Source of the DNA: Desulfococcaceae bacterium
GTDB lineage: Bacteria; Desulfobacterota; Desulfobacteria; Desulfobacterales; Desulfosalsimonadaceae
Direction: 5' to 3'
Assembly (NCBI GenBank): GCA_030145385.1
Contig: JAQYVU010000012.1
Span: 1 to 64,000 of the forward strand
Length of the DNA stretch: 64,000 nt
The translations under genes and the position numbers were made by a program. The notes below the pieces were generated by a model. The model did no database searches and was not told the origin of the DNA. It saw nothing but the letters and a program-made list of their open reading frames with translations. The first letter of the stretch is position 1. Each line of letters starts with the position of its first letter. Positions 24,370 through 64,000 of the stretch are shown here, one piece after another.

Positions 24370-25740
24370 TTAAAATGGATGCCCGATAAACAGTTGCGCA
24401 AAGGCATCTTCATCTGAAAACGCAAAATCCGCCCGGAGGATAATATTATTGGCCATCGCCCGGACACCCGTTCCCAAAGACCATTTCATGTTTGAATGAA
24501 GCTCATTGAAACTCCAGTTGGGCGCCACCCGCCCCAGGTCGGAAAACCCCACCAGCTGAATCCAGTCCACATCCAGGCGATTGTCTAATGTAAAATCTTT
24601 TAATGGATTCCAGTTAAGCGTATGGCGGTATTCCATTCCATAGTAGATGGCGGACCGGTCATTAAAACGGGTTGCAGGATAACCGCGAAGCCGGAACAAC
24701 CCACCCAGATTGGCACCCTTGTATGTTGGCGGACGGTGATAAATAGCATTGCCGTTCTCCGTATGGGAATTGTTCCATGACACGCAGTCCGTGGTCCAGA
24801 AATTAAATGTGACCACGCGCTGGCGGGCTGTTTCTGAAGGGCCTAAATTGAAATATTTATCCAGTTCAAAACCGATTACGGACCATGGGCGGGAACTCCC
24901 GAATTCACCCCAGTCGCCGGAAAAATAAATCCGCTGGGAACTTCCACGGGACGGATTCAGCCGGAAATCGGTATTGTCATAATATATCGCCACATCTGTA
25001 CCGGCTGTTTTCTGGATGATATCGGCGTCATCATTATCAAGGGTCTGGTTTCGGTAAAACGGCTTCAGCTCCAAATAGGTCCGGCCGGTTGCAAATGGAT
25101 TCCAGGAATCTACGCCTTCATCGGCATAAACACAAACCCCGTTTTCCAGTTTACGTGTGGGCATAAAAGTGTCCTTGCCGTGGCCGATGGGCAGAAGATA
25201 CCTGATTCTGAAGTCAACCCAGAAATCATCCCCGTCCGCTTCAATAAAATTATCCTTGGAAGAGTCATTGCTCCCGGCATCTTCATCCGGAAATTCCGGA
25301 TTGTTGATGGTATAAGACTGAATATTTTCAAAGCTGCCCACAGACGTCTGGGGATCTAAAATAATCCGTTTACAAAATGGGACCCGGTAATTTCGTACCA
25401 TCAGAAACAGCATATAGGTCCCCTGTGCGCTTATCAGGCCGGTTCCCACGGTCAGCATCCGGTCCTGGCCATACCCTTCAGCAACGGCAGCTACTCCCAG
25501 TCCGGTGCCGATGGTGGAATTATAAAACGGATACGGCACCACCAGCATGCGTTTGGGAGGACGTTCCGCTGCCGGTGGTTCAACCGCATCGATAATTTTG
25601 AGTTCATCAGCATATCCCGATGAACAAAAAAACATCAGAAACAGAATCACCAGGCAGTAGTTGAAAAGAGGTGCCGGTTTCCGCAATAAACTTCTTAATA
25701 AAAGCCTTCGATGTTGGAAGTTTTTTTTATCCATTTTCAT
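24370..25740 (-). CDS. Omp85/BamA-TamA family outer membrane barrel protein
   Basis: A 456-aa protein with a long signal sequence (about 1-45, ending SSGYADE). The barrel part contains the Omp85 loop motif LFRLRGYPATRF near residue 345 and ends in FAQLFIGHPF. No POTRA domains are evident. Its start lies inside the last codons of the mechanosensitive channel gene (overlap 14 bp), so the two are translationally coupled. It is distinct from the Omp85-type protein at 12842, but the shared fold suggests a role in export or lipid handling at the outer membrane. Confidence 0.82.
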   Translation of the reverse strand: MKMDKKNFQHRRLLLRSLLRKPAPLFNYCLVILFLMFFCSSGYADELKIIDAVEPPAAERPPKRMLVVPYPFYNSTIGTGLGVAAVAEGYGQDRMLTVGTGLISAQGTYMLFLMVRNYRVPFCKRIILDPQTSVGSFENIQSYTINNPEFPDEDAGSNDSSKDNFIEADGDDFWVDFRIRYLLPIGHGKDTFMPTRKLENGVCVYADEGVDSWNPFATGRTYLELKPFYRNQTLDNDDADIIQKTAGTDVAIYYDNTDFRLNPSRGSSQRIYFSGDWGEFGSSRPWSVIGFELDKYFNLGPSETARQRVVTFNFWTTDCVSWNNSHTENGNAIYHRPPTYKGANLGGLFRLRGYPATRFNDRSAIYYGMEYRHTLNWNPLKDFTLDNRLDVDWIQLVGFSDLGRVAPNWSFNELHSNMKWSLGTGVRAMANNIILRADFAFSDEDAFAQLFIGHPF

Positions 25741-28099
25741 CGCCCGATGTTGCTGAACAAGGTACCAGGCTCACCTGGATCGGCTTTCCGGCATCCAGGT
25801 GAACATCATGCTGGGGAAATGCAATGACGATACCGGATTCATCCAATCGCTTGCCGAGCATATGGCGGAAATCACTGGCAATAATTCGATAGGTCATTTC
25901 CGGGTCAATGTTCACCCAGAAATAAACAGTAAAGATCAACGCGCTATCACCAAAATCATCAAATAAAATGCACGGTGCCGGATTTTTCAGGATTCGGCCG
26001 TGTTCTTCAAGAACCCGGCTGACAATCTGGGAAACATTGCGGGTATGTGACCCGTAAGCGACACCAAATTTAATGGTCAGCCGTAGCTGCGAATCCGATA
26101 ACGTCCAGTTAACCACATTTTTTTGGAGAAATTCGCTGTTCGGCACCAGAATATCAATGCCGTCAAACCGCCTGACCTGAGAACATCGGGCTCCGACACT
26201 GACAACAGTGCCTGACATTCCGTCAATTTCAATGATATCATCCACCTTAATGGGCTGTTCCATCAGCAGAATAATACCGCTGATAAAATTATTGATCAGA
26301 TTCTGTGCACCAAAACCAACCCCAATGGCAAGCGCGCCACCCATGAATGCAAACACGGTTAATGGGATTTTCACTGTCATCAGTGCAAAAATCACCAGGC
26401 TGATAAAAACTATAATAATAAATATTTTTTCAATTAAGATGACACCGGGAGCGGCAACTTTAAAGTGCCTGGCGGATATCGCACCGATTTTATTCTTCAG
26501 GGGTGTGCTGAGTAAAAAACCGATAATCAGTATCATTAGCGCCGTTAATATCTTGCCGATGGTAACCGCACGCTGTCCGGTCACTTTTTCGCCGTCAATA
26601 AATATGGTGTCATCAACGGCAAACAGTTCATAATTCCAGAAAGAAACCAGAAAAGCCCCTCCATGATCAAACAACCCCGCAATGCGTTCAGTGATAGTAA
26701 GCCGCTTGCGGTGGCCCCGGACTTCATTTAAAAACCGTTCGGTGTTGCGGATCACATCATTTGTTTTCGGGATATTTTGGGACAGGAAATCAGCCCGCGC
26801 CTGATAGGCTTCAAGTATTTCAAGAACAAAGACCTGTTCTTCCTCGCTGATCGCGTCGGCTTCCGCCCGCCTTTGCTGGTTGGCAACCAGGCTTTGAGAC
26901 AATTCCAGACTGGAACTGGTGTATGCCTGAAATTCACGCAATCTGGATATGATGATCTCAAGACGGTCGGCCGCCTTTTTTAATTCTACACTATCACGGT
27001 CATTAGCCAGCAGGTATCGCTCTTCCCAAAGTATTTTTTCAACATCAAGGCCGGAAAGGATAATGAAATACATATCCGCTATCTGGGAACTGGTATCCGC
27101 CCATGCCTGAAAAACCTCAAGCTGACGGCGGGCGACCGAATTTCCCGCAAGATCCGATGCCTTACCTGCCAGTAACGCCTGACGGGCCTGCCTTAGTTTT
27201 TCCTGGTTAACTTTATCCCGTTCCGTCGCCTCAGAATAGAGCGTTTCAAGCTGCTCCTTTTCTTTTTTGATGGCAGTCAGTTTCCGGTCAAGATCCTGCT
27301 TTGTAAATGCAACATCTGAAGACACTCTTTCGAAATACTGTTCAAGTAATGCCAGTTCTTTTCGATTAAACGCGATGATCGCGTCAGTGGTCTCAAGTTG
27401 TTTTTTTAAAACCAGGACTCTGACGCGTGCCACCTCATTTCCCAAAAGAGAAAGTTCCCGAAGCCATTTCAAACGTAGCGGATTTTCAGATGACCGTCGG
27501 CGCTCCAAGGCCTCGGTTGACAGCCGCAATTTCTGCTCGGATGTTTTCAACTCATCACGGGCATCTTCCTGATTCTGTAATAAAAACGTTTTCAGCGCGG
27601 TCTTTTCATCAATTTTAAGATTCAGGTCATAAATATCATCACGCAGCTGATCCACAACGGTGACCGCATATGGGGGGCCTTTACCATACCTTTCAAGGCC
27701 CTTATCCGTATCCGGATAAAAATGCGCTGCCTGGCTGATTTCGTCAATGGTTCGATAGGCGTCGACATACTGTTCATAAAAGGAGATCTTTCTCTTCAGC
27801 AGCCAGATCTTTTGATTGACTTCCTGCGGGGTCGCTCCGATTTGGTTCGGCGAAGTGGACTCAAGAAAGGACTTTGTATTCTGGAGATCCTGCCGTGCCG
27901 CATCCAGAGATTTCTGGAGACGGCCCATCGCTATCTCATTTTCACCCGGTTCCTGTTTAACCGAATTCTCAGGAGAAACCGTTTCGAATTGAACCCCGGT
28001 CTGAGACCATGCCGGCGGCAAATATACGATAGAAAACAAAAACCACAAGATCAGTCCGGCAATAAGCAGGAGGTTTGCTTTTCCTGATTTTTTAAACAT
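25727..28099 (-). CDS. MscS-superfamily mechanosensitive channel with long coiled-coil periplasmic part
   Basis: A 790-aa protein with a signal sequence (1-32), about 420 residues of mostly coiled-coil periplasmic sequence, several membrane helices (from about 500) and a C-terminal MscS domain. The pore-lining helix and following beta domain read GGALAIGVGFGAQNLINNFI and DDIIEIDGMSGTVVSVGARC. The layout resembles MscK/YjeP-type channels that release solutes on hypo-osmotic shock. The ATG at 28099 is chosen because the signal peptide follows it directly. A paralogue begins at 63670. The next gene overlaps its end. Confidence 0.87.
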   Translation of the reverse strand: MFKKSGKANLLLIAGLILWFLFSIVYLPPAWSQTGVQFETVSPENSVKQEPGENEIAMGRLQKSLDAARQDLQNTKSFLESTSPNQIGATPQEVNQKIWLLKRKISFYEQYVDAYRTIDEISQAAHFYPDTDKGLERYGKGPPYAVTVVDQLRDDIYDLNLKIDEKTALKTFLLQNQEDARDELKTSEQKLRLSTEALERRRSSENPLRLKWLRELSLLGNEVARVRVLVLKKQLETTDAIIAFNRKELALLEQYFERVSSDVAFTKQDLDRKLTAIKKEKEQLETLYSEATERDKVNQEKLRQARQALLAGKASDLAGNSVARRQLEVFQAWADTSSQIADMYFIILSGLDVEKILWEERYLLANDRDSVELKKAADRLEIIISRLREFQAYTSSSLELSQSLVANQQRRAEADAISEEEQVFVLEILEAYQARADFLSQNIPKTNDVIRNTERFLNEVRGHRKRLTITERIAGLFDHGGAFLVSFWNYELFAVDDTIFIDGEKVTGQRAVTIGKILTALMILIIGFLLSTPLKNKIGAISARHFKVAAPGVILIEKIFIIIVFISLVIFALMTVKIPLTVFAFMGGALAIGVGFGAQNLINNFISGIILLMEQPIKVDDIIEIDGMSGTVVSVGARCSQVRRFDGIDILVPNSEFLQKNVVNWTLSDSQLRLTIKFGVAYGSHTRNVSQIVSRVLEEHGRILKNPAPCILFDDFGDSALIFTVYFWVNIDPEMTYRIIASDFRHMLGKRLDESGIVIAFPQHDVHLDAGKPIQVSLVPCSATSGDENG

Positions 28100-28152
28100 A
28101 ATTATTCGCACCACTTCATAAAAAAGGTCTTCTTTAATATCCCGCAGTCTTT

Positions 28153-28173
28153 TGTGGGAGCGGTTTCCAGCCA
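28153..28173 (+). repeat. REP-like half-site
   Basis: TGTGGGAGCGGTTTCCAGCC, the same core as the REP-like element at 7123, in the gap between the channel and SlyB-like genes. Confidence 0.5.
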
Positions 28174-28276
28174 TGAATTTGAATCGTGTCAGGATGCCGC
28201 TCACACTGATAATGGCTCACACAAAAACCAGGAGGCTGATTTTGGTGGGCACTCTTCATTCCGTTGCGCTTTCTAT

Positions 28277-28789: not shown

Positions 28790-29644
28790 TTATTGAAAAA
28801 GGCTCTTCGGCAGAAGCGTCTGTATCTGGCAGCGCATTGTCCAGCGCGGCCCAATATTATCCGGTTTCTTAACGTTATAGTAAGCCCCGATTTGCATATT
28901 CAGGGGGAGTTTACCAAGAAATATCAGCCTGCCTATCCCGCCGCCAAACGGAACCGTCCAGCGATTGTCGCTGTCTGCTTCCCAGTTGGCTGTAATGACA
29001 GGAGCGGATGTCAGATACCATCCGTTCGGCAGATTGTAGTTAACAAAATACTGAACCAGCATCTGGTTGACATCAGCCCGGTCACTGTCACCGGCAAACG
29101 ACCAGATATTCTGCGCCAGTACACCATATACCCAGGGCTTTCCCATCTTCAGGACTACCGCCGCAGGCCCGGCCCCCCATTTTTTACTTCCCAGCCGGTC
29201 ATCCGTTGCTGTGGGCAGCATGAAGATCGGACCGGCACCCCAGATAACTTCTCCCGGTTCTTTAGGCCCGACAAACAAAGATAAATTGATGTCACCCAGG
29301 CCGAACTTGCTGTCCTGGCCGGGTGCAAATTCCGGCTGATTGATCAGCGGCATGATGGTGCGTGTTATAAGATTCCAGTCCTTATTCAGAGAGAATGGAA
29401 TCACCGGCTGGATATTCGTGATGTTCTGGGTTTTTTCAAGAGGTCCGTATTTGAAATTGGTATTGTTCTGAATCGGCAAACTGATCAAATCCGCCATGGG
29501 GTTCTGGGACGCTGCTCTCAGCTCTTCATCAGTGGCTTCCCCCGATTCCACAACCCCGTCCCCATCGAACGCTGCTGTCAGACCCGGCATGATGAACAAA
29601 CAGGCAATCATTAAAAGAGTAAATAAAAATCGAACTTTAAACAT
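28790..29644 (-). CDS. Outer membrane protein of the MetA/phenol-degradation-like barrel type, copy 1
   Basis: A 284-aa protein with a signal sequence (about 1-25). The mature part begins DGDGVVESGEATDEELRAAS, then barrel-like strands such as NNTNFKYGP, VIPFSLNKDWNLITRTIMPL, FGLGDINLSLFVGPK and a C-terminal QTLLPKSLFQ. Similar proteins are often labelled transporter or, misleadingly, neuromedin U. Function is unknown. The paralogue at 60767 is very similar and is also followed by a SlyB-like gene. Confidence 0.75.
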   Translation of the reverse strand: MFKVRFLFTLLMIACLFIMPGLTAAFDGDGVVESGEATDEELRAASQNPMADLISLPIQNNTNFKYGPLEKTQNITNIQPVIPFSLNKDWNLITRTIMPLINQPEFAPGQDSKFGLGDINLSLFVGPKEPGEVIWGAGPIFMLPTATDDRLGSKKWGAGPAAVVLKMGKPWVYGVLAQNIWSFAGDSDRADVNQMLVQYFVNYNLPNGWYLTSAPVITANWEADSDNRWTVPFGGGIGRLIFLGKLPLNMQIGAYYNVKKPDNIGPRWTMRCQIQTLLPKSLFQ

Positions 29645-29768: not shown

Positions 29769-30443
29769 TTACTGTTTCTTTCCATGCGCCAGATCAATAA
29801 ATGTCCTGAGTCTTTTTGCCCAGAATTTAAATGCTTCTTTAGCTGAACCATACTTGGAAAATCTTTCAGTAAACCCGGCCGTCTGTTCATCCTGAGCAGC
29901 CACAATCACCTCATTGGTGACTGAATCAATGACAATCAACTCTACGCTCGTAGCGCCGGATCCGGTCCATGCGCCGGTGGTCCCTTTTTTTGCGGCACTG
30001 ATCACCAATCCAATGGGTAAGGCAGTGGTAATTCCACTGACGACCGGACTGCTCTGTTTAAGGCCGGTTAAAGCAATTTTTAAACGCGCTACACCAGGGC
30101 CGGGCTCAGTCACGATGGGGTAACCGCCTTTGTAGGCCTCTTTGACTTCCTGCTCAAATTCAGTCGATAACCCCAACAGTACTGCAGGATCGATCCCCTT
30201 GTATTCTGAATCGTCGGCAAAAAAATACACCACGCTGTCGAGCATAACTTTGTCATAATTTTTAAAATCGACCCCAGGCTTGATCCATCGCAAATTAGCG
30301 CCACCCTTTGGCCCGGGTTGCAGGTCTTCATAATACTCTCCCAGAAATCCAGACTGCTTGGGAGCGGACGCACAGGATATTATAGTTGTCGCAAAAACCA
30401 GCAAAATAAGAAATTTCACTGCAATCATTTGTTCTTTTTTCAT
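29769..30443 (-). CDS. DUF3313 lipoprotein
   Basis: A 224-aa lipoprotein (lipobox IISC near Cys24). The mature part follows the DUF3313 pattern: FLGEYYEDLQPGPKGGANLR, a YFFADDSEYKGIDPAVL loop, VARLKIALTGLK and a C-terminal SVELIVIDSVTNEVIVAAQD segment. DUF3313 proteins are outer-membrane-linked proteins of unknown role. GAAGGAG precedes the ATG at 30443. It has no counterpart in the right-hand arm. Confidence 0.78.
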   Translation of the reverse strand: MKKEQMIAVKFLILLVFATTIISCASAPKQSGFLGEYYEDLQPGPKGGANLRWIKPGVDFKNYDKVMLDSVVYFFADDSEYKGIDPAVLLGLSTEFEQEVKEAYKGGYPIVTEPGPGVARLKIALTGLKQSSPVVSGITTALPIGLVISAAKKGTTGAWTGSGATSVELIVIDSVTNEVIVAAQDEQTAGFTERFSKYGSAKEAFKFWAKRLRTFIDLAHGKKQ

Positions 30444-30494
30444 AACGATCTCCTTCATTTAAAAAAAAGTCACTTTTTTGTTTTTGAAATGGAA

Positions 30495-31331
30495 TTATTG
30501 TAAAAGAGCGGACAACGCATCCGCCTCTTCATCACAGTCCCGGGAAGGCATCAGCCCATTGTCAACAGCTGCTTTATATTCGCTTTTGGCGGCTTCCAGT
30601 TCGGCGCAAAAAACAGGATCCGCATGCAGCCGGGCGACGGTGGCCGCTCCCATAAAACGTCCCTCAGCCACGTCGCTGTGCCAGTGGACGTTACAGATAT
30701 TCCGGCTTTCACCGAATGCCCGGCCCCGGGCCAGAATCGCATCGGCCCGTTCCGGCGCAATCTCCGTCAAAATCAACGCCCATGCCCATCCAAGCGCTGT
30801 ATGCCCGGAAGGATAGGAACCGTCCTTTCTCAATTTTTCTTCGTCTTCCGGGGTGCAGACCGGGGCATTATTTTCCATAAAGGGCCGTTTCCGCTGATAA
30901 TGCGTTTTTGCCTGATATGTTGAAAGACCGGCATCTCCTGCAGACCGACGAAGAATCATGTAAAGATGCGGGGTGTCCTTTTCATTAATCGGGATTCCCA
31001 GGGCACAGGAAAAGGCACCGGCAGCTTCGGGAAAATGAAGGTTTGCATCATCAATGGCCAGGTTCCAGCGTGAAGTATCCCTCAATTTCAATGCTTTTCG
31101 GCTGACTTCCTCGTCCATCGCCATGGCCGCCGAACCTTTTTCCGGGGGCGGCGGAATCAGTTCAAGACTGTTTGGAAGGGTTTCGATCTCAAGATAGCCG
31201 GCCAGAAGCCCGGGATAAATCTCCGGTACTTCTGTAGGAATTTTAATGGTGTCAACACTTGCGCATGCGGTGATGATGAGAATACCCATGAGAACAAGCA
31301 GAATCTTTATTCGTTTAAAAACCATTTCCAT
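30495..31331 (-). CDS. Class A non-specific acid phosphatase (PhoN/PhoC-like), lipoprotein
   Basis: A 278-aa member of the PAP2/class A acid phosphatase family with a lipobox (IITAC, Cys23). The full signature K-X6-RP / PSGH / SR-X5-H-X3-D is present: KTHYQRKRP at 142-150, PSGH at 174-177, SRNICNVHWHSD at 209-220. These enzymes release phosphate from diverse esters in the periplasm. The lipid anchor differs from the soluble enterobacterial forms. AGGAG is 4 nt before this ATG and 10 nt before an in-frame ATG at 31325, so the exact start is uncertain. Confidence 0.88.
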   Translation of the reverse strand: MEMVFKRIKILLVLMGILIITACASVDTIKIPTEVPEIYPGLLAGYLEIETLPNSLELIPPPPEKGSAAMAMDEEVSRKALKLRDTSRWNLAIDDANLHFPEAAGAFSCALGIPINEKDTPHLYMILRRSAGDAGLSTYQAKTHYQRKRPFMENNAPVCTPEDEEKLRKDGSYPSGHTALGWAWALILTEIAPERADAILARGRAFGESRNICNVHWHSDVAEGRFMGAATVARLHADPVFCAELEAAKSEYKAAVDNGLMPSRDCDEEADALSALLQ

Positions 31332-31387: not shown

Positions 31388-32440
31388 TTATTTTACCTTG
31401 ACTGGCGTTGGTAATTTGTATGCTTCCAATTGATCTAATTTTGGCTCGTATACCCGCATTACATAGTTCCAGCCTTTGGTGATAGGTAAGTTATTTTTAG
31501 CGTTGGCACCACATTCACCAAAAGTAACATCAAAGCTGCCATCTTCATTAAAAGTGATGTTGTTTTTGTTTAGAATTGCTTTTTCATTAAACATCCAGCC
31601 TTCGGCATCATACATAGTGATTGAAAAGAAGCCCGGGGCATTAAATGGCGGTACTTGAAAAGTTGCTTGGTAGCAAACACCTGTGTCGTCTTCTGGAGCA
31701 TATGCGATGTATCGAGCATTGGCATCGGGTAATAACCCCCACCCGACAGCTGTGCCTAGTAAATGCAAATGCTCATCAACTGTGCCACGCGCTCCCTGCA
31801 TATTATTTTGTGAATCCAATGCAATAGCTTCATTTGCAAGCTTGACTCTAAGCTTCACTAATTGATCCATATCATAATTAGGCTGTTTAAAGACTTTGTC
31901 GCCTTTAACGTCTAACTTTACGGCTTGTTGTAAGGCGACTACTTTTTCAGCATCTGCCGGATCAGTCAGATTAATTTCTGTACGTATGTTTACCATAACA
32001 AAATCGCTGTCCATATCGCTTTTAATCTGGTAAGTACCCGCACCAATAAAAACGTCATTAACATAGTGATCATTTTGCACGACCATTACAGATTGATAAC
32101 GGCCATCAGTTTCCGGCAGGGTTATGGTTGCACCTTTTGACACATCAACAACAGCACCACTGTAAATGGTATCCTGATTCATGCGTACAACCGTTTGATT
32201 ACTTAAATCAAACGGTTGTACCGGAAGGTGGATAAACTTATTGACCCCGCCGAGTTTAATAGTATTACCAAAAGTGAGGTCTGATTCTGCTCTTTTATAG
32301 TTTTCAAGCGTCACGGGGATCGTATCAATTTCATCTGCGATAGATGCCTCCTTTGCTGTGGAACACCCAAAAATTATTAAACTACTGACGACTAATGCGC
32401 TTGTGATGATTGAACGACCTATCTTACTCGAAATACTCAT
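31388..32440 (-). CDS. DUF1254/DUF1214-type lipoprotein
   Basis: A 350-aa lipoprotein (lipobox IIFGC). It has the DUF1254 core VVRMNQDTIYSGAVVDVSKG and QSVMVVQNDHYVNDVFIGAG, and then the DUF1214 ending FSITMYDAEGWMFNEK to YVMRVYEP. It is the short form of the family, like the protein at 56475 in the other arm. DUF1254/DUF1214 proteins are exported and of unknown function. Codon use looks more A/T-ended than in flanking genes, hinting at separate acquisition. It lies between a longer DUF1254 gene and the phosphatase gene. Confidence 0.82.
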   Translation of the reverse strand: MSISSKIGRSIITSALVVSSLIIFGCSTAKEASIADEIDTIPVTLENYKRAESDLTFGNTIKLGGVNKFIHLPVQPFDLSNQTVVRMNQDTIYSGAVVDVSKGATITLPETDGRYQSVMVVQNDHYVNDVFIGAGTYQIKSDMDSDFVMVNIRTEINLTDPADAEKVVALQQAVKLDVKGDKVFKQPNYDMDQLVKLRVKLANEAIALDSQNNMQGARGTVDEHLHLLGTAVGWGLLPDANARYIAYAPEDDTGVCYQATFQVPPFNAPGFFSITMYDAEGWMFNEKAILNKNNITFNEDGSFDVTFGECGANAKNNLPITKGWNYVMRVYEPKLDQLEAYKLPTPVKVK

Positions 32441-34000: not shown

Positions 34001-34141
34001 AAGTTCTTTCCTTTCTATAAAAGCTTTAAACTTGCAATCTCGTAAAAAGTCAGATTCCGATGGCAAAGAAAAAAGCTCCACCAATCTTAAAATTGGCAAG
34101 GGGCGCAAATCCTGAGTGATAATTTGTACTTATCGTACCAT

Positions 34142-54848: not shown

Positions 54849-55928
54849 ATGTCGAAAAAACCAACAATCCTTTTAGCAGCAATGGTCTTTAGTGCCTTCA
54901 CTGGCTTTGCTTCGACCGCGCATGCCTGGGATCATCCTTCGCACATGACCTGCGCAGCCATAGCATTCGCTGAAATCGAACGCACGCATCCCGATCTGAT
55001 TGAAAAGATTGGGCTGGTTTTATTGAAGCATCCGGATCCAAGCCCGTTCTGGGTGGCTTCTGGAGATGCAAGGGGCAAGGAACGCGCCCGGCGCATGTTC
55101 ATCGAAGGAGCACGCTGGCCGGACGACAACAAATGGACGATACATGACCGCCCTACCTGGCATACGGCCCGCTGGGCCATTGTCGAAACAGACGCTTCGC
55201 CCGAGACCAAGGCTTTAGCTGCAGCTCGTAAAGGGATGCCTGCAGGACAGGCGATCGAAGCCCTGGTATTGAATTATGCCATGCTGTCGAGTTCTGAAAC
55301 CAATCCTACCGAACGCGCCAGTGCCCTGAGCTGGATACTCCATCTGGTCGGAGATATCCACCAGCCCCTTCATGTCAGTGATCGCTTTTCAAAGCAATTT
55401 CCCGCCGGAAATGCTGCGGGGACGCTTGAGTACGTTGCCGATCCTCTGGGGGACTCGACAATTCCGCTGCACATGCTTTGGGACTCCAATAGCCTGCGGT
55501 CGCAAAAATTGGGTGATATCGACCGTAATGCGCAGGAATTGGTGAAAAAGTATCCGCGCTCTGCTTTCCCTGAGCTGGCCGCGTACAGTGGGCCGGACGT
55601 TTTTGAGAAATGGGCGCGGGAGAGTTACAAGGTGGCGGTAGATTTTGCCTACGGATATGGGATCGAAACAGTCACCGACCCTGATCCGGATCAAACTCCT
55701 GACACGGTGGTAAGGAAAATGGTGAAATTCGCACTCGAAGGGATCTCCCCGGTGGAGGAGGCTCCGGAAGTGCCTGTCGAATACTGGGAGAAATTACAGG
55801 ATGTGGCTCACCGGCGCATTACTTTGGCCGCTTACCGGTTAGCAGATCTTATCATCGTCGCTGCTGATCAGATTGCATCAGAAAGAGCGCTAGCCGGAAG
55901 TGTTTTGAATACCATTGATCAGCATTGA
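54849..55928 (+). CDS. S1/P1-family exported nuclease
   Basis: A 359-aa protein with a signal peptide cleaved after STAHA, leaving the mature N-terminal tryptophan (W27, AWDHPSHM) that coordinates zinc in this family. Further zinc ligands are in FIEGARWPDD, WHTARW and the signature WILHLVGDIHQPLHVSDRF. S1/P1 enzymes degrade single-stranded nucleic acids and release nucleotides, which neighbouring phosphatases could dephosphorylate. TAAGGAG precedes the ATG. Confidence 0.88.
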   Translation: MSKKPTILLAAMVFSAFTGFASTAHAWDHPSHMTCAAIAFAEIERTHPDLIEKIGLVLLKHPDPSPFWVASGDARGKERARRMFIEGARWPDDNKWTIHDRPTWHTARWAIVETDASPETKALAAARKGMPAGQAIEALVLNYAMLSSSETNPTERASALSWILHLVGDIHQPLHVSDRFSKQFPAGNAAGTLEYVADPLGDSTIPLHMLWDSNSLRSQKLGDIDRNAQELVKKYPRSAFPELAAYSGPDVFEKWARESYKVAVDFAYGYGIETVTDPDPDQTPDTVVRKMVKFALEGISPVEEAPEVPVEYWEKLQDVAHRRITLAAYRLADLIIVAADQIASERALAGSVLNTIDQH

Positions 55929-55951
55929 TGCTGGATGCTGCAACGGTTGCA

Positions 55952-56251
55952 CAGCAGCTATTGCGCAATTTTAATCCGAAGCGATCAGGGGATATCTGTC
56001 TGGTTCTCGAACCCCACTGGTTTGTCAACGATTTTGACGGGTCAAAGGTAGCCAGCACGCAAGGTTCCCCTTGGCGGTATGATACCTATGTACCGATCAT
56101 GTTTGCCGGTTGGAACATCTCAGCGAAAACAATTAACCGGCAGGTGGAAACCGTGGATATTGCGCCGACCCTGGCGTTGTTACTGGGTACGAAACTGCCT
56201 TCCGGTTCAGTAGGAAAACCGCTGACGGAAGCTATGTCAAACCTAAATTGA
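55952..56251 (+). pseudogene. C-terminal remnant of a PafA-like phosphatase gene
   Basis: From 55952 the frame reads LLRNFNPKRSGDICLVLEPH and then follows the last ~95 residues of the phosphatase at 52205, including GSPWRYDTYVPIMFAG and VDIAPTLALLLG. The DNA between 55960 and 56080 closely matches 53640-53760. No start, signal peptide or catalytic site remains; an ATG at 55925 overlaps the nuclease stop but adds unrelated residues. It is the end of a lost second copy. Confidence 0.82.
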
Positions 56252-56474: not shown

Positions 56475-57503
56475 ATGAAGAAATGGTTTTTGTTAATTAT
56501 GATAATGATTTTTTCAGCTTCTGTGGGCAGCGCCCTTGCCGAAGAAAGCAAGATTGATGTGAATCTCGATAACTTGAGAACCGTGGAAAGCCATATGCAG
56601 TTTGACCGCTATCAAAAGGCCGCTGGCGGCATTAACAAGTTGTATCACTTAAGAGCGGCAGTGGATATTGACAACCAGACCACTATCGCCATGAATCGTG
56701 ATACTCTCTATAGCCTTGCGATTGTGAATCTGAAAAAACCCGTAACCTTAACGATTCCCGAAAACAATGGCAGGTATTTCAGTGTTGAGGTCATTGACGA
56801 GGATCATTATGCCTATGAGGTATATACCAAACCCGGCAAATACACACTCAAAGAAAAGGATGTCGGCACTCAATATGCCGAGTTTGCAGTGCGCGTATTT
56901 ATGAATCCGGATGATCCTGAAGATATGGCTGCCGCGCACGCCCTGCAGGACGGGTTCAAGGTCGAAGGCGGTTCCAGTGAACCATTTGTACTGCCTAATT
57001 ACGACATGGAACGCTATGAAACGCTTTTTAAGATGGTCCAGCAGCTGGTCGCTTTCGCAGGCAAAGATACCATCGGTTCCATGGGCAAACGCGGCGAGGT
57101 CGATTCCCTGAAGCATACCGTTGCAACGATTGCGGGATGGGGACTTTTGCCGCCTGAAAATGCAATGTATCAGGCAGTGCAGCTGAACTTATCCACCGCA
57201 AAGAAATATAAAATCGAAGTACCCGCCGATGTGCCGGTTAACGCGTTCTGGTCGATTTCCATGTACAATGCCCAGGGCTTCTTTCAAAAAAATGACCTGG
57301 ACGCCTACAGTCTGAATAGTGTCACCGCAAAACCCAATGCCGACAAATCGTTTACCATCTACCTGGGCGGGTGCGAAGATGGCCGGGATAACTGTCTGCC
57401 GTTTACCGGAGAAGGATTTTATTATCAGTGGCGGATGTACGAGCCTGGTGAAGCATTCCTGAATGGTGAATACTCATTTAATTTGCCGGAAGAGGTCAAA
57501 TAA
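56475..57503 (+). CDS. DUF1254/DUF1214 exported protein, short form
   Basis: A 342-aa protein with a signal sequence (to SALAEES). Core motifs: TTIAMNRDTLYSLAIVNLKK, YFSVEVIDEDHYAYEVYTK and NAFWSISMYNAQGFFQKND. It is the counterpart of the left-arm lipoprotein at 31388, but with a cleavable signal rather than a lipobox. AAAAGGAG precedes the ATG. Confidence 0.85.
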   Translation: MKKWFLLIMIMIFSASVGSALAEESKIDVNLDNLRTVESHMQFDRYQKAAGGINKLYHLRAAVDIDNQTTIAMNRDTLYSLAIVNLKKPVTLTIPENNGRYFSVEVIDEDHYAYEVYTKPGKYTLKEKDVGTQYAEFAVRVFMNPDDPEDMAAAHALQDGFKVEGGSSEPFVLPNYDMERYETLFKMVQQLVAFAGKDTIGSMGKRGEVDSLKHTVATIAGWGLLPPENAMYQAVQLNLSTAKKYKIEVPADVPVNAFWSISMYNAQGFFQKNDLDAYSLNSVTAKPNADKSFTIYLGGCEDGRDNCLPFTGEGFYYQWRMYEPGEAFLNGEYSFNLPEEVK

Positions 57504-57626
57504 TGACTGCTGTAGGAATCTTTTATAACAACTTCAGTCGTTTATATTAACCTGATTCAAATTTACGATGCCGCTTCCAAAAGAAATGGTATCCTGAATG
57601 TGACCCAAGTGACAAGGAGAACAGGT

Positions 57627-59288
57627 ATGAAAAGAGTGTCCAAACCGCAAACGTTTCTATTTATCTTAGGGGTACTATGCCTCCTGCTTGTATCGTCATC
57701 ATATGCCGAAGCAAAGCAGCCGAACATTCTGCTGGTTATGGTTGACGACATGGGTTGGACCGATGTGGGCTGTTTCGGCAGTGAGATCGATACACCGAAT
57801 ATTGATGCCTTGGCTGAGCAGGGCGTGAAATTTTCAGACTTCCATGTTTCCGTGAGCTGCTCGCCGACCCGCTCGATGCTTTTGTCCGGAACAGACAATC
57901 ATTTGGCTGGTCTTGGCAATATGGGGGAGATGCTTGCGCCCGAGCAACGCGGCAAACCAGGCTATGAAGGTCACTTAAACGACCGGGTTGCATCCCTTGC
58001 CGAAGTCCTTGGCTCCGGCGGGTACCATACTTACATGGCCGGCAAATGGCACCTTGGCCATGATCCTGAATCTTTCCCTTATGCACGTGGGTTTGAGCGG
58101 TCGTTCAGCATGCTTTTCGGCGGGGCCAGCTACTGGAGCGATATGTTCGGAATGCTGGCAGTGCATGAGGAGGTTGCCGAGTATGTTTTAAACGATAAGC
58201 GGCTCAAAGAATTGCCCAAAGACTTTTATGCCACGCGCAGTTTTGCTGATTTTCTAATTGAGTCAATTCGGGCAAACCGGGGCGATGGCAAACCCTTTCT
58301 TGCCTATCTTGCTTTTACCGCACCGCATGACCCGATGCATGTTCCTGAACCGTGGCTCAGCAAATATCGCGGTAAGTATGACGACGGGTACGAGAGGCTC
58401 AAATCACAGCGCGCTTTAGCGGCAAAACAGATGGGGCTGGTTTCCGATAGCGCCCCGATGCCAAAACGATACCATCCGGAAGTCTATGATTGGGTGACGG
58501 CATGGGATTCACTTACCGAGGAACAGCAGGCCATCGAGTCCAGGGGAATGGAAGTCTATGCAGGCATAGTCAACAACATGGATTACCATTTCGGGCGGGT
58601 TGTGAAGTTTCTTAAAGACATCGGCGAATACGATAATACCGTCGTGCTTTTTTTGTCTGATAACGGACCGAATCCCTGGTACAGCGAAGACTATCCCGGC
58701 AACCGAGGCAGCAAATGGTACGCCCAGTTTGACAACAGTATCGATAATATTGGAAACCCCATGTCCCACTATGCGTACGGAATGGGCTGGGGATCTGCCA
58801 GTGCGGGCCCGTTGGATCTTTTTAAAATGACCGTTGCCGAAGGCGGCATCCGCAGTCCGCTGATCATTGCAGGACCGGGTATCCAGAGCGGCCGGCAGGC
58901 TGATTCCTTTGCCTATGTTTGGGACATCATGCCCACGATATTAGATTTTGCCGGTATTCCACGCCCTGAGAAATATAAGGGCCGGCAGTTGGAGAAAATG
59001 ATGGGCAAGACGCTGAAAGGCGTGCTCACCGGATCGACAAAAGCGGTCTACGGCGCAGACGAAGTCGTCTGTGGAGAGATGCAAAACGGCAAGTGGGCAC
59101 GGCAGGGTGATTTCAAAGCAGTTTCAGTTTCACCGCCCTACGGGACAGGGATATGGCACCTTTACAACCTTGCGGATGATCCCGGAGAAACGAAGGATCT
59201 GGCCGGTAAAAAGCCGGAAACGCTGAAGAAACTGCAAGCAGCATGGGATCAATATGCCAAAGATGTCGGTGTTATTTTAACCAAATGA
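57627..59288 (+). CDS. Type I arylsulfatase
   Basis: A 553-aa exported sulfatase. Signal peptide to about SYAEA. Metal motif VMVDDMGWTD (D40, D41) and the formylglycine site CSPTR (Cys78) in SVSCSPTRSMLLSG; later GKWHLGHDPE and SDNGPNPWYS complete the active site. Cys78 must be converted to formylglycine; no maturase gene is in the window. It hydrolyses sulfate esters in the periplasm. CAAGGAG precedes the ATG at 57627. It is followed by a porin gene, possibly for uptake of the desulfated product. Confidence 0.9.
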   Translation: MKRVSKPQTFLFILGVLCLLLVSSSYAEAKQPNILLVMVDDMGWTDVGCFGSEIDTPNIDALAEQGVKFSDFHVSVSCSPTRSMLLSGTDNHLAGLGNMGEMLAPEQRGKPGYEGHLNDRVASLAEVLGSGGYHTYMAGKWHLGHDPESFPYARGFERSFSMLFGGASYWSDMFGMLAVHEEVAEYVLNDKRLKELPKDFYATRSFADFLIESIRANRGDGKPFLAYLAFTAPHDPMHVPEPWLSKYRGKYDDGYERLKSQRALAAKQMGLVSDSAPMPKRYHPEVYDWVTAWDSLTEEQQAIESRGMEVYAGIVNNMDYHFGRVVKFLKDIGEYDNTVVLFLSDNGPNPWYSEDYPGNRGSKWYAQFDNSIDNIGNPMSHYAYGMGWGSASAGPLDLFKMTVAEGGIRSPLIIAGPGIQSGRQADSFAYVWDIMPTILDFAGIPRPEKYKGRQLEKMMGKTLKGVLTGSTKAVYGADEVVCGEMQNGKWARQGDFKAVSVSPPYGTGIWHLYNLADDPGETKDLAGKKPETLKKLQAAWDQYAKDVGVILTK

Positions 59289-59334: not shown

Positions 59335-60681
59335 ATGCGTAATCGTTTTTTACCGGAGTATAAGTATCTTAAGTGGCTTGGTGCCGTATTAATAGCAGTT
59401 CTGTTTGTTCCCTCTCAGGTTTATGCCGGCAGCACAACAAGCATAACGAGCAAACCGCTGGAAAACTTTGAATCCGGCAATACCGCCTTGAGTGAACAAG
59501 AACAAGATTTACGGATAAACAACCCCGGGTCCATTGTTAAGCGGTTGGAAGAAGACGCGGTAAAAAAGGATTACTTCTTTCAGTTTCCCGGTATCTCAGG
59601 GGCTTTAAAACCCTGGTATGACATGAAGGCTGACCTTGATGAGAAGTACGGATTTAAGTTCGGCATCTCCTATGCTGCCATTTACAATAAGGCGAGTGAT
59701 AATTTCGGGCCGGAGGATGATGCGGCAAGCTCAGACCTTGACATCAGCGGCACCTGGGTCTTTCACGGCCGTGAAACGGATTCACCGACAATGCTTGGTT
59801 TTGATTTTTTCTGGCGGGACACCCTGGGCACCGACATTCCGCCCCAGAGGTTGTTCACGCAGTTCGGAGCACTCTACTCAACCGCCGCACCTTATGGGGA
59901 AGAGGACCCGTGTGTCGGAGAATTCTGGATACAGCAGAAATTCAAGAATGTATTCGGGTTTCGCGTGGGACAGATCTTTCCCATTACAGCGTATGACTTC
60001 TTTCCCTTCAAGAACTTCCGGACAGATTTCATCGATTTTAATCAGGTCACCAACAATGCGATCCCTTTGCCCGGCAACGGGTTCGGCGCGTTTGTCATGT
60101 ACCGGCCTGCTTCCAGGATCATGCTTCGTCTCGGTGCCCATGACGCAAACGCAAATGTTCAGAAATCCGGTTTCGATACCTATGACGGCGAACTCTTTTC
60201 AATTTTCGAGCTCGGTTTTGACACAGGCTTGCTGCCGCGTAAACCCGGAGGGCCGCCGCAAGGTCACTTTCATGTTTCGCTCTGGCACCAGGACGAGAGG
60301 GAAGACGCTGGCATTGAAGACGGCTGGGGCATCGCCGGATCGGCAGTTCAGCGGTTCGGACGTTTTACGCCTTTCGTGCGCTATGGTTACGCGGACGGCG
60401 GTAAAAATGGCCCGGCGCCTGTCAGGCACATGGCAAACGTGGGCCTGGTCATAGATGAAATTTTCGGACAGGCCAATGACCGCATCGGAATCGGCTGCAC
60501 CTGGTCCGATCCGGCAGATCGGGCACTGGACGACCAGAGTATGATCGATGCCTACTATCGCGTACAGGTGACGCCGGAGATCCAGGTCGGCCCGACGTTC
60601 CAGGTCATCTTTGATCCGGTGCGCAACCCGGATGAAGATACGATTTTCATCGGTGGAATCCGCGCTCGAATTGCATTATAG
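59335..60681 (+). CDS. OprB-like carbohydrate-selective porin
   Basis: A 448-aa outer-membrane protein with a signal sequence (to VYAGS). The barrel pattern follows the OprB family: KYGFKFGISYAAIYNKASDN, TWVFHGRETDSPTMLGFDFF, GEFWIQQKFKNVFGFRVGQI, GHFHVSLWHQDERED and a C-terminal FIGGIRARIAL. OprB porins admit sugars, so with the sulfatase it may serve uptake of sulfated saccharides (inference). TAAGGA precedes the ATG. Confidence 0.85.
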   Translation: MRNRFLPEYKYLKWLGAVLIAVLFVPSQVYAGSTTSITSKPLENFESGNTALSEQEQDLRINNPGSIVKRLEEDAVKKDYFFQFPGISGALKPWYDMKADLDEKYGFKFGISYAAIYNKASDNFGPEDDAASSDLDISGTWVFHGRETDSPTMLGFDFFWRDTLGTDIPPQRLFTQFGALYSTAAPYGEEDPCVGEFWIQQKFKNVFGFRVGQIFPITAYDFFPFKNFRTDFIDFNQVTNNAIPLPGNGFGAFVMYRPASRIMLRLGAHDANANVQKSGFDTYDGELFSIFELGFDTGLLPRKPGGPPQGHFHVSLWHQDEREDAGIEDGWGIAGSAVQRFGRFTPFVRYGYADGGKNGPAPVRHMANVGLVIDEIFGQANDRIGIGCTWSDPADRALDDQSMIDAYYRVQVTPEIQVGPTFQVIFDPVRNPDEDTIFIGGIRARIAL

Positions 60682-60766: not shown

Positions 60767-61624
60767 ATGTTTAAAAGAATTCGAATTCTGATCGTGTTTT
60801 TAATAATTGCTTGTATGTTTGTGCTCCCGGGCCTGACATTGGCATACAAGGGAGACGGTGTTGTGGAATCCGGTGAAAACACTGATGAAGAGTTGAGAAA
60901 AGCGTCTCAGAACCCCATGGCGGATCTGATCAGTTTTCCGATTCAGAACAATACCAATTTTAAATACGGTCCCTTTGAAAAAACTCAGAATATCACGAAT
61001 ATCCAGCCGGTGATTCCATTCTCCCTGAATGAGGAGTGGAATCTGATAACACGCACCATCATGCCGCTGATCAATCAGCCGGGATTTGTATCCGGCCAGG
61101 ACAGCAAGTTCGGGCTGGGTGATATTAATTTAGCTCTGTTTGTCGGGCCCAAAGAGCCGGGAGAAGTTATCTGGGGCGCCGGGCCTATCTTCATGCTGCC
61201 CACTGCAACGGATGACCGGCTGGGCAGTAAAAAATGGGGGGCCGGGCCTGCGGCAGTAGTCCTTAAGATGGGTAAGCTGTGGGTCTATGGTGTACTGGCT
61301 CAGAATATCTGGTCGTTTGCCGGGGACTCCGACCGGGCTGATGTCAACCAGATGCTGGTTCAGTATTTTGTTAACTATAATTTGCCGGACGGATGGTATC
61401 TGTCTTCCGCTCCTGTCATCACAGCCAACTGGGAAGCGGACAGCGACAACCGCTGGACGGTTCCTTTTGGCGGCGGGATCGGCAGGCTGATCTTTCTAGG
61501 CAAACTACCGTTGAATTTGCAGGTCACGGCTTTCTATAATGTTGTGAAACCGGATGATATCGGACCTCGCTGGACGTTGCGTTGTCAAATACAAACGCTT
61601 CTGCCAAAAAATATGTTTCAATAG
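60767..61624 (+). CDS. Outer membrane protein of the MetA/phenol-degradation-like barrel type, copy 2
   Basis: A 285-aa paralogue of the protein at 28790 with near-identical sequence over most of its length (IQNNTNFKYGPFEKTQNITN, FGLGDINLALFVGPKEPGEV). Signal sequence to about LAYKGD. AAGGAG precedes the ATG. As in the left arm, the next gene encodes a SlyB-like lipoprotein. Confidence 0.76.
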   Translation: MFKRIRILIVFLIIACMFVLPGLTLAYKGDGVVESGENTDEELRKASQNPMADLISFPIQNNTNFKYGPFEKTQNITNIQPVIPFSLNEEWNLITRTIMPLINQPGFVSGQDSKFGLGDINLALFVGPKEPGEVIWGAGPIFMLPTATDDRLGSKKWGAGPAAVVLKMGKLWVYGVLAQNIWSFAGDSDRADVNQMLVQYFVNYNLPDGWYLSSAPVITANWEADSDNRWTVPFGGGIGRLIFLGKLPLNLQVTAFYNVVKPDDIGPRWTLRCQIQTLLPKNMFQ

Positions 61625-62527: not shown

Positions 62528-63556
62528 ATGAATACTGCCAAAATCCCTTTGTTGATCATGGTTTTATTTTTGTCCGTAAGCGCTGCATATGCCCTGGATC
62601 CGATTCCCCAGGAACCGGGCTTCAGCGGATTTGTCCGGGCCGGAGCCGGTGTTATGAATTACAAGAGCAACATGGTAGCCGGTGTTCTTATGGTGGATTT
62701 GGGAGATAAGACGATTGATTCACTGACCGATACACCGGGTTCAAAAACACAAGGTTATCCATCGTTGAATTATGAACTGGCCTGGACGTTTGCCGATTCA
62801 CGAACACAGATTACTTTCGGTTCTCAGCTCGAAGATGTGGCCCGGATGGAGCTTGGCCAGCAGCTGGCGGTCAAACAGGAACTGCCGGATAAAAGCATTC
62901 TTTCCGCCGGCTTATTATTAACAAACATCCCCACCGAAGTCTGGAAAGATCCCTATGTGACGGGTATGCCAAGAGATGAGTCCGACCGCACTTCCTACGG
63001 CGCACGAATTGTTTTTGACCGGATTCTGGGTTCCGGTTTTGAGGTAAAATATTCGTACCGGAAGATTGAGATCGACGACGAACAAAGCGGTGTTTTCCTG
63101 GGGCTCTCCCCGGATCAAAGAGACCTGCTTCGCCGGGATGGCAACAACCATTTTATTGATTTGAATTACGGTATGACTTTCCAGCAGAAACATCGAATAA
63201 TGCCCGGCATTTCATATTTCAAGAGGCATCGGGACGGCGACGCCATGAGCAACTGGGGAACGACTTTCCAGATGACCTATATTTGTTTCGATAATCCGGT
63301 TGTCCTGGTGCTCAACGGTCTCATCGGCATGGCGGATTATGATAAAACCAATCCGGTTTTCGGGAAAACACAGGAAGATGACCTCTATAGCGCCAACATG
63401 CAGGTCGTCTATAGAAATCCGTTTGGCTGGAAGCCCTTTGGTCATGAGAATTTCAGCATGTACGTCACGGGAAGTTATCTGTTGAATGATGCCAATATTG
63501 ATTTTTACGATACTGAAGTGTTCACGGGTATTGTCGGTGCGATGTTCCGGTTCTGA
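62528..63556 (+). CDS. DUF2860-like outer membrane protein
   Basis: A 342-aa protein with a signal sequence (to AAYALDP). It opens FSGFVRAGAGVMNYKSNM, then barrel strands (SLNYELAWTFADSRTQITFG, GSGFEVKYSYRKIEID, KHRIMPGISYFKRHRDGD) and ends TGIVGAMFRF. This resembles the DUF2860 barrel family. There is no counterpart in the left arm between the SlyB-like and channel genes. GAGGAG precedes the ATG. Confidence 0.72.
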   Translation: MNTAKIPLLIMVLFLSVSAAYALDPIPQEPGFSGFVRAGAGVMNYKSNMVAGVLMVDLGDKTIDSLTDTPGSKTQGYPSLNYELAWTFADSRTQITFGSQLEDVARMELGQQLAVKQELPDKSILSAGLLLTNIPTEVWKDPYVTGMPRDESDRTSYGARIVFDRILGSGFEVKYSYRKIEIDDEQSGVFLGLSPDQRDLLRRDGNNHFIDLNYGMTFQQKHRIMPGISYFKRHRDGDAMSNWGTTFQMTYICFDNPVVLVLNGLIGMADYDKTNPVFGKTQEDDLYSANMQVVYRNPFGWKPFGHENFSMYVTGSYLLNDANIDFYDTEVFTGIVGAMFRF

Positions 63557-63669
63557 TCGATGATCCCTGATGCCGCAATGTTGCCATATGGTTCCTTGTG
63601 CCGCTGTTTCCTGATTTCATTTCATTGCGATGAATAAATGAAGATTTTTTGTTTCAAAAGCTTTGAAAT

Positions 63670-64000
63670 ATGACCTTACAGAAATCAATAAAAATAATCA
63701 GCCGTCTCTTCACCGGGCTTATGATATGGGTTTTGATTTCCGGTGCTGATTTGCCGTCTGCATGGCCGCATACCGATCTTGAATTCGACCCGCTTCCTTC
63801 TGAACAGACGCTTAAACAAGAACCGGGTGACAATGTCGAAACGATCGGCCGTCTCCAGAATTTTCTGGATAAGGCACGGCAGGATCTCCAAAACACACAG
63901 TCTTTTCTGGAAACCACTTCGCCCGACCAAATCGGTGCCACTGCCCAGGAAGTTAATCAAAAGATTTGGCTGCTCAAGAGAAAAATTTCCTTTTATGAAC
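63670..64000 (+). CDS. MscS-superfamily channel, 5' part only (right arm)
   Basis: The ATG at 63670 opens MTLQKSIKIISRLFTGLMIW with a signal sequence, then a long charged helix. From about residue 40 it matches the left-arm channel: LKQEPGDN, GRLQNFLDKARQDLQNTQSF, then TSPDQIGATAQEVNQKIWLL and KRKISFYE at the window edge. Most of the protein, including the pore, lies beyond the window. No upstream ribosome site is strong. This reading replaces the minus-strand open frames in the same place. Confidence 0.85.
   Translation, partial: MTLQKSIKIISRLFTGLMIWVLISGADLPSAWPHTDLEFDPLPSEQTLKQEPGDNVETIGRLQNFLDKARQDLQNTQSFLETTSPDQIGATAQEVNQKIWLLKRKISFYE

Follow-up and report, generated by a model that had tools for sequence, protein, structure and literature searches.

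How does one bacterial genome come to carry two mirror-image arrays of envelope genes, with a shared scaffold and different enzymes between the shared genes? This question is raised by a stretch of 64,000 nucleotides (hereafter, the window) from a Desulfococcaceae bacterium. The window corresponds to bases 1-64000 of the 70,668-base contig JAQYVU010000012.1 in the draft assembly GCA_030145385.1 (5.24 Mb, 209 contigs, 97.04% complete, 4.23% contaminated). Two gene arrays, which we call the left and right arms, run outward from a pair of facing regulator genes. In the left arm, the plus-strand regulator gene is followed on the minus strand by genes for an 83-amino-acid (aa) protein (p83), a 334-aa outer-membrane channel (OMP), a DUF1254/DUF1214 protein (DUF1254 below), a SYLF-type protein and three more DUF1254 proteins. 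Further outward on the same strand are PAP2, DUF3313, barrel-like, SlyB-like, MscS, Omp85-like and DUF389 genes (the sequence of DUF1254 types b, c and short, PAP2 and DUF3313 is taken from the coordinates). The right arm starts with a minus-strand regulator gene, followed on the plus strand by p83, OMP, DUF1254, SYLF, DUF1254 and PafA-like phosphatase genes. Then come META, S1/P1 nuclease, short DUF1254, sulfatase, OprB, barrel-like, SlyB-like, DUF2860 and MscS genes and, past the end of the window, Omp85-like, DUF5666-like and DUF389 genes. The coordinates are collected in Table 1.

The two arms are homologous at the DNA level. Self-comparison of the DNA gave inverted matches in mirror order at 74-90% identity. 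For example, the 3.2 kb from the regulator to the OMP gene (37952-41169 versus 48340-45139) are 74% identical, the Omp85-like region (24367-25576 versus 67519-66310) is 89% identical and the DUF389 region (22509-24223 versus 69940-68226) is 90% identical; the E-value was reported as 0.0 for all three. The other inverted matches cover the SYLF (80%), barrel (86%), SlyB-like (82%), MscS (85%) and DUF5666-like (74%) genes. At the protein level, the ten scaffold pairs share 59-90% identity: regulator 63, p83 59, OMP 82, SYLF 83, barrel 88, SlyB-like 84, MscS 81, Omp85-like 87, DUF389 90 and DUF5666-like 73%. A first-pass annotation, made from the letters alone, had described this mirror order and pairing, and both were borne out; the equal lengths that it listed for four pairs (537, 83, 334 and 154 aa) are exact, given internal ATG starts. 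The extent that it assigned to the arrays (24370-64000) was too short. The right arm extends past the window to ~69,940, and the paired genes of the left arm reach outward to the DUF389 gene (22520) and the DUF5666-like gene (18456). These last two genes are ordered differently in the left and right arms, and the DUF2860 gene between the SlyB-like and MscS genes is present in the right arm only. The MetA label had been placed on the later barrel; the Pfam MetA match (PF13557) belongs to the 334-aa OMP, and the barrel has no Pfam family (left copies were scanned).

Between the conserved pairs each arm has its own enzymes, as had been described. The middle genes do not pair, and the DUF1254 proteins share ~23-49% identity across the arms (type a 27, type b 41, short type 36%), the best pair being right type b and left type c (49%). 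The DUF1254 genes flanking SYLF differ in type between the arms, with ~23% and 26% identity at matching positions. The paired DUF1254 middle proteins are not each other's nearest relatives, and five of the seven DUF1254/DUF1214 genes in the window have relatives of 66-88% identity in other genomes. Among the fetched loci, the nearest outside relatives of seven middle genes are at 88, 82, 80, 78, 74, 72 and 66%, and two of these (78 and 74%) are in the congener (G004), which belongs to the same genus group. The case for closer kin outside rests on these seven genes because the remaining ones are at 59% or lower; for META, no relative covering more than 60% of its length was found among the fetched loci. 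Exchange with other genomes or reciprocal loss may explain the differing middle genes. The duplicated 3′ piece of the PafA-like gene, which lies after the S1/P1 nuclease gene, is a possible recombination scar.

For the scaffold proteins, the first-pass annotation expected partners to be close relatives. This holds for the regulators by tree and for OMP, barrel and DUF389 by identity, and fails by a small margin for p83. In a quick tree of 22 hand-chosen rows, the two regulators are sisters (SH-aLRT 100), and the single copy of the congener comes next (95). The OMP pair (82%) has its nearest outside relative at 37% or less and the DUF389 pair (90%) at 63%, both in 60 genomes; for the barrel pair (88%), the nearest outside relatives are at 56-62%. 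Thus, for these three proteins the partner in the other arm is the nearest by identity among the genomes searched. The wide comparison with outside relatives covers regulator, OMP, barrel, DUF389, p83 and SYLF.

A possible course of the duplication is suggested by a direct copy. A same-strand copy of the outer end of the left arm lies between the regulators (16029-18527 and 41727-43876). Its two parts, 16029-16749/41727-42447 and 17105-18210/42584-43692, are identical at 92% and 76%, respectively. The copy ends in a broken tail of a DUF5666-like gene (43779-43876), which matches the left gene at 59 of 72 bases and the right gene at 51 of 72; aligned over equal stretches, it scores 46 to the left gene and 30 to the right. 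Because this is a direct repeat with a truncated DUF5666-like tail, the sequence suggests that the array was duplicated in tandem and that the second copy was then inverted from inside the DUF5666-like gene outward. The divergence along the arms is uneven. Synonymous distances (NG86) are 0.30 for DUF389, 0.43 for OMP, 0.49 for barrel, 0.52 for Omp85-like and 0.53 for MscS, and 0.92 for SYLF, 0.97 for SlyB-like, 1.3 for DUF5666-like, 1.46 for the regulator and 2.3 for p83. Moreover, a permutation test (5,000 permutations, 12 genes) shows clustering of identical silent codons in the direct DUF3108 pair (p 0.0002) and in DUF389 (0.0008), MscS (0.005) and Omp85-like (0.03). The clustering is not clear in OMP (0.20), barrel (0.25), DUF5666-like (0.24), SlyB-like (0.08) and the second direct pair (0.10), and p is at least 0.6 in SYLF, p83 and regulator. 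This pattern suggests that some long scaffold genes were partly homogenised later by gene conversion. Uneven divergence together with these signs of conversion therefore argues against one untouched event. The inverted duplication with exchange of middle genes that had been proposed stands in outline; it did not include the tandem step proposed here, the signs of gene conversion and the uneven divergence. In the order of events that we propose, an ancestral array would have been duplicated in tandem and one copy inverted; the middle genes would then have been replaced, or differently lost, in each arm, and part of the long scaffold genes would have been homogenised afterwards.

How widely do such arrays occur? 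A scan of genome contigs with the outer channel as query gave 69 pattern matches and no confirmed relative. Therefore, the regulator alignment was used as the query for a second scan. The resulting loci are the best 80 of 278 relatives, in two sets (L101-140 and L141-180), each counted once; it should be mentioned that some loci have duplicate designations (for example, L020/L101, L069/L103, L070/L110 and L073/L112). Of the 80 loci, at least 57 have a p83 gene close to the regulator but on the other strand: 31 of 40 in L101-140, where the distance exceeds 1 kb in three cases (L103, L121 and L139), and at least 26 of 40 in L141-180, a lower bound given that the regulator start was set to 10001 throughout that set. 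Nearly all L141-180 loci are titled with Rhizobiales-type genera; further records with both regulator and p83 are titled Acidobacteria, Holophagae, Gemmatimonadota and others. In the order of the source organism, the p83 profile matches 14 of 194 genomes, its own among them. The genes behind p83 vary: barrel and sulfatase genes (L048, L049, L053, L060), DUF1254 genes (L070, L073), a FadL-type gene (L074) and, in further loci, mixtures with PafA-like, PAP2, S1/P1 and SYLF genes. Judged by gene order, the regulator and p83 head with variable envelope operons is a widespread type, present once per locus in many bacteria. The locus is thus not a unique system, and the refuting case named in the first-pass annotation, single-copy arms elsewhere, is partly realised by single regulator and p83 heads with other gene sets. 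Separately, p83 relatives lie near ~9061 of L061 and ~1962 of L065, between MatE and TPP-enzyme or other genes.

TPR matches were found in all six regulator-family members scanned, and FlgO/TolB matches were weak and in single members; no DNA-binding family and no Trans_reg_C was among the 17 Pfam families matched by these six at E up to 0.5. No signal peptide was seen in the regulator. The window regulators resemble HilA/CadC-type regulators in a DNA-binding-like N-terminus, a TolB/FlgO-like middle and TPR repeats, and residues 305-461 of the right regulator give a weak NCBIfam match to HilA/EilA (27.4 bits, cut-off 589). They differ in the absence of a Pfam DNA-binding family from the six scanned members and in their usual position beside p83. 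The right p83 was modelled as a four-helix bundle (mean predicted local distance difference test score, pLDDT, 94.5). Searches of 30 p83 members against Pfam and 30 against NCBIfam gave matches of single members only, PADLOC gave no match for the two window copies, and a PDB sequence search gave nothing under E 0.17. The structural matches of p83 are generic helical PDB proteins, the best being a release factor (Z 6.9), and are possibly meaningless; the anti-activator Aqs1 (Z 6.5, rank 4) stands among them and was not adopted.

In both arms, regulator and p83 genes are divergent with a palindrome, AACCTAnnnTAGGkT, between them, upstream of the p83 gene. Its core is CCTATAATAGG in the left arm and CCTATATTAGG in the right arm. 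A motif finder recovered the palindrome AACCTAnnnTAGGTT in 21 of 30 regulator-p83 intergenic regions (two from the window and 28 from other loci), with 17 exact cores and four weaker variants (L124, L128, L135 and L137). The log-likelihood was 138.7 with 25 starts, versus 42.7-49.7 in three letter-shuffled sets with 10 starts each; the 30 regions include related loci (for example, L110, L112 and L117), and L115 and L116 are from one genome. The exact core CCTANNNTAGG occurs twice in the window (39448 and 46834) with 0.30 expected, and 4 of 100 shuffles reach two. The genome has six exact cores, compared with 237 occurrences of a reversed control pattern on each strand. The four further genomic cores were considered as marking target operons and rejected: they lack the longer consensus, and no neighbouring gene matched the reference set. 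When two mismatches are allowed, the pattern shows no enrichment (10 matches in the window against 15.2 expected). Among L101-140 loci with p83 close to the regulator, 15 of 28 intergenic regions hold the core, which occurs 15 times in 7,312 intergenic bases; the other 327,365 bases contain it two times, in L108 on both occasions. These counts do not include the twelve L101-140 loci that have no p83 within 700 bases; among them, the core lies at most 230 bases from the regulator in L103, L109 and L113, and elsewhere in L107 and L113. In L141-180, a related GTAnnnTAC-type motif is present in 22 of 23 intergenic regions (169.5 versus 32.6-36.7 in shuffled sets), the set having been thinned from 27 regions with p83 and regulator starts placed roughly. 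Palindromes of one design (CTAnnnTAG or GTAnnnTAC) are seen in records of both Desulfobacterota and Rhizobiales. The two regulators of the window differ little in their putative recognition helix; therefore, cross-regulation between the arms is plausible.

The DUF1254 proteins are enriched in loci of this kind. Thirty genomes, selected among those of the 80 loci mainly for their long contigs, contain 130 DUF1214 domains. Twenty-one of these domains are inside regulator loci, in 15 of the 30 genomes, where 0.44 would be expected by length; six coordinate coincidences on other contigs are excluded from the 21. The source genome has 11 DUF1214 domains, seven on this contig and two each on contigs C138 and C83. 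The C138 array contains two ion channels along with barrel, DUF5666-like and Omp85-like genes, and the C83 array contains sulfatases, a barrel and a gene that shares 55% identity with the PafA-like gene of the window. At 5427-7615 of C138 (L004), a Cys-loop channel (pentameric ligand-gated type) and an Ion_trans_2 two-helix channel lie within the DUF1254 array. Both PF06863 and PF06742 are above the cut-off in all seven DUF1254/DUF1214 proteins of the window. The model of right type b resembles VPA0735 (2p3y, 3vb9) over nearly its full length (3vb9: Z 46.4, root-mean-square deviation 2.2, 455 residues aligned) and has the same fold as VPA0106 (3u07, Z 26.6). Those entries are titled as uncharacterized or structural-genomics targets, whereas here the proteins occur as sets under a dedicated regulator. 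Weaker structural matches outside the DUF1254 family, to the sensor domain of RetS (Z 6.7) and to lectin and carbohydrate-binding modules (~5), were not used as evidence, and the absence of a family from the match lists excludes nothing. In two expression studies, DUF1254 genes appear as rows of tables of NnrR- and iron-related data (PMC6710368, PMC3751524). In the open-licence literature, no description of this gene set was found by title and abstract start; DUF1254 is named in five papers and DUF1214 in one, and no paper combined two of DUF1254, SYLF and DUF1214.

The remaining products are assigned with differing strength. The left SYLF-type protein gave 20.8 bits to Pfam Ysc84 (cut-off 25.1) and 56.3 bits to NCBIfam lipo_BPSL1445 (cut-off 200). 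Both MscS families, PF00924 and PF21082, were present in the scan of the left copy. The left SlyB-like protein has a glycine-zipper 2TM domain and a lipobox; SlyB lipoproteins build ring-like assemblies with outer-membrane proteins. DUF5666-like is a label used here for the left protein and its partner; a Pfam scan of the left copy gave no match. Many products of the locus have lipobox-like motifs by a simple pattern, by which two barrel matches are probably false. The sulfatase has PF00884 and an intact CxPxR motif, and the acid phosphatase has the class A signature motif intact (K-x6-RP ... PSGH ... SR-x5-H-x3-D). The right-arm PafA-like enzyme resembles the PafA alkaline phosphatase (PMC8812569). 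At 477.5 bits it is under the curated NCBIfam equivalog cut-off for PafA (650), and it differs also by sitting in an operon of the regulator-p83 type. As in polysaccharide utilisation loci, a regulator stands beside a variable set of outer-membrane proteins and exported enzymes; unlike those loci, no SusC/SusD-type match was found in the 30 window proteins scanned.

What might the two arms do? Judging from the encoded families, capture and ester hydrolysis at the envelope are likely functions. We give an even chance to the reading that an operon of a widespread and variable type has been doubled here, and that its arms are two co-switched, substrate-specialised sets for envelope capture and ester hydrolysis. 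An internal signal would act on the regulator, perhaps via p83, and the regulator would bind the palindrome. Binding would switch on outer-membrane channels (the PF13557 channel, the barrel and OprB). DUF1254 lipoproteins or periplasmic proteins would be co-induced and bind substrate, together with exported hydrolases: the acid phosphatase on the left, and the PafA-like phosphatase, S1/P1 nuclease and sulfatase on the right. Stability of the loaded envelope would be ensured by the SYLF, SlyB-like, MscS, Omp85-like and DUF389 proteins that both arms encode, and the arms would be two substrate-specialised versions under one switch type. A broader proposal, which we hold tentatively and place just short of even, is that a TAnnnTA-type palindrome belongs with regulator and p83 to a single control cassette of ancient origin, placed before variable, DUF1254-enriched envelope operons. 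Here the cassette would have been doubled with its scaffold into a mirror pair, so that two enzyme sets answer one switch type; gene conversion would have kept the scaffold partly alike, and p83 would be a dedicated partner of the regulator (anti-activator or adaptor).

Several observations weigh against these proposals. The genome is a draft with the number of contigs, completeness and contamination given above. The right p83 is 61% identical to that of the congener and 59% to the left p83, and a small tree of SYLF proteins does not resolve the branching order of the two arms and the congener. After correction for 12 tests, silent-codon clustering is clear in DUF389 and DUF3108 only, and constraint or codon bias could likewise yield uneven divergence. 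As for the palindrome, 9 of 30 intergenic regions have no site, 4 of 21 sites are weak, 13 of 28 regions have no exact core, and the exact core is just upstream of the regulator in none of the 40 L141-180 loci. Moreover, p83 is found with no visible regulator in three loci: in L061 and L065 its neighbours are MatE, TPP-enzyme and glutamate-synthase-like genes, and in L064 it precedes genes for iron-sulfur and flavin mononucleotide-binding proteins. In L066, a regulator without p83 precedes SYLF-like, DUF5666-like and glycyl radical enzyme genes. Because p83 and regulator occur apart in other operons, the cassette need not sense ester substrates.

Other histories can be imagined for the mirror structure. 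The draft state of the assembly, and a contig that stops just past the right arm, would suit a collapsed or chimeric inverted repeat. However, identical runs in the paired genes are 131 bases at most, and we consider an artefact extremely improbable because a duplicate created by misassembly would not show such divergence. Two independently acquired arrays might also have come to lie head to head by chance, with no duplication: nearly all middle genes differ between the arms, the regulators share just 63%, single-copy loci of the regulator-p83 type are common and the right p83 is slightly nearer to that of the congener than the left p83 is. This is improbable when set against the order and orientation common to both arms, the sister position of the regulators (100), and identities of 82 versus at most 37% outside (OMP), 88 versus 60-62% (barrel) and 90 versus 63% (DUF389). 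Reciprocal loss concerns the history only and is compatible with the ester-hydrolysis reading: an ancestral array would have held all middle genes, and each copy would have lost a different part with no exchange between genomes. The cluster L081 of the congener indeed holds relatives of the middle genes of both arms (DUF1254 type a 74%, PAP2 78%, META 53% and PafA-like in two pieces, 59 and 56%), but some middle genes have relatives of 80-88% in other genera, and the DUF1254 types on either side of SYLF differ between the arms. We regard reciprocal loss as possible, though we lean towards doubting it.

The chief rival to capture and ester hydrolysis is defence against envelope stress. In an envelope-stress or osmotic protection island, the scaffold would be central, and the hydrolases would remodel the cell's own lipids or lipopolysaccharide and not food. 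It is indeed the scaffold that both arms have retained, MscS-like genes are present in 8 of 40 L141-180 loci (no matched control), and the C138 array of the same genome carries the two ion channels. In L101-140, however, MscS is found in 2, SlyB-like in 0 and barrel in 12 of 40 loci (many contigs being short), and porins with several different ester hydrolases suit uptake better. We regard a protection island as rather unlikely.

Table 1. Positions of the arm features in window coordinates. Percentages given for outside relatives of middle genes refer to the nearest among the fetched loci.
Feature	Position	Strand	Remarks
Left regulator	39556..41169	+	537 aa; DNA-binding-like N-terminus, TolB/FlgO-like middle, TPR
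Right regulator	45139..46752	-	537 aa
Left p83 (83-aa protein)	39082..39333	-	p83 family
Right p83	46959..47210	+	p83 family; modelled without first Met as four-helix bundle
Left operator candidate	39448..39458		115 bp before 83-aa start
Right operator candidate	46834..46844		115 bp before 83-aa start
Left OMP, 334 aa	37963..38967	-	PF13557
Right OMP, 334 aa	47325..48329	+	homology to left
Left SYLF-type protein	35767..36351	-	sub-cut-off Pfam Ysc84 and NCBIfam lipo_BPSL1445 matches
Right SYLF-type protein	49968..50552	+	homology to left; 80% to congener G004
Left barrel-like protein	28790..29644	-	no Pfam family; barrel nature from first-pass annotation and sequence character
Right barrel-like protein	60767..61624	+	homology to left
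Left glycine-zipper (SlyB-like), 154 aa	28277..28741	-	lipobox-like motif
Right glycine-zipper (SlyB-like), 154 aa	61751..62215	+	homology to left
Left MscS-type channel	25727..28204	-	PF00924 and PF21082
Right MscS-type channel	63670..64000, continuing to contig 66051	+	81% to left
Left Omp85-superfamily protein	24370..25740	-	partner at contig 66113-67516
Left DUF389 membrane protein	22520..24223	-	partner at contig 68226-69929
Left DUF5666-like protein	18456..19106	-	partner at contig 67551-68141
Direct copy of 16004-18527	41687..43876	-	DUF3108 gene, second gene, broken DUF5666-like tail
DUF1254/DUF1214 left type a	36444..37910	-	lipobox-like motif; 74% to congener L081
DUF1254/DUF1214 left type b	34204..35742	-	80% to Desulfosarcina cetonica L106
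DUF1254/DUF1214 left type c	32480..34108	-	88% to L108
Short DUF1254/DUF1214, left	31388..32440	-	lipobox-like motif; 40% nearest outside
Class A acid phosphatase-like (PAP2), left	30495..31331	-	lipobox-like motif; 78% to congener L081
DUF3313, left only	29769..30458	-	lipobox-like motif; 49% nearest outside
DUF1254/DUF1214 right type b	48372..49919	+	VPA0735 fold by model; 66% to L084
DUF1254/DUF1214 right type a	50638..52092	+	lipobox-like motif; 72% to L051
PafA-like alkaline phosphatase superfamily enzyme, right	52205..53923	+	82% to D. widdelii L105
META-domain protein, right	53956..54756	+	lipobox-like motif
S1/P1 nuclease family, right	54849..55928	+	59% nearest outside
Fragment repeating PafA-like 3′ end	55925..56251	+	53632-53787 versus 55954-56109, 87%
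Short DUF1254/DUF1214, right	56475..57503	+	40% nearest outside
Type I sulfatase, right	57600..59288	+	CSPTR motif; ~30% nearest outside
OprB-family porin, right	59335..60681	+	~30% nearest outside
DUF2860, right only	62528..63556	+	domain scan

The left flank of the window has features of its own. An AT-rich stretch at 3975-6434 on the minus strand (GC content 0.30 at 4001-6000) encodes an 819-aa protein with weak STAND/AAA NTPase matches below the cut-off, for which PADLOC gave no match. This stretch is foreign-looking, and its gene is possibly a defence gene. A 207-base direct repeat (97%) at 9051-9257 and 10077-10283 brackets a PIN-domain gene (9621-10019), and an MttB-family (trimethylamine methyltransferase-like) protein is encoded at 10327-11793 on the minus strand. 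The flank also shares short repeats with the arms (3546-3609/34198-34135, 92%; 12499-12600/56354-56455, 86%).

For DUF1254/DUF1214 proteins, structures have been solved and we found no assigned role. Their repeated placement near one regulator and p83 pair gives a testable handle, namely a candidate operator to assay and an inducer to seek, and isolates such as Desulfosarcina widdelii, D. cetonica or rhizobia would be suitable for this. The two facing arms are themselves a natural paired experiment, in which the same switch type and scaffold are combined with different enzymes.

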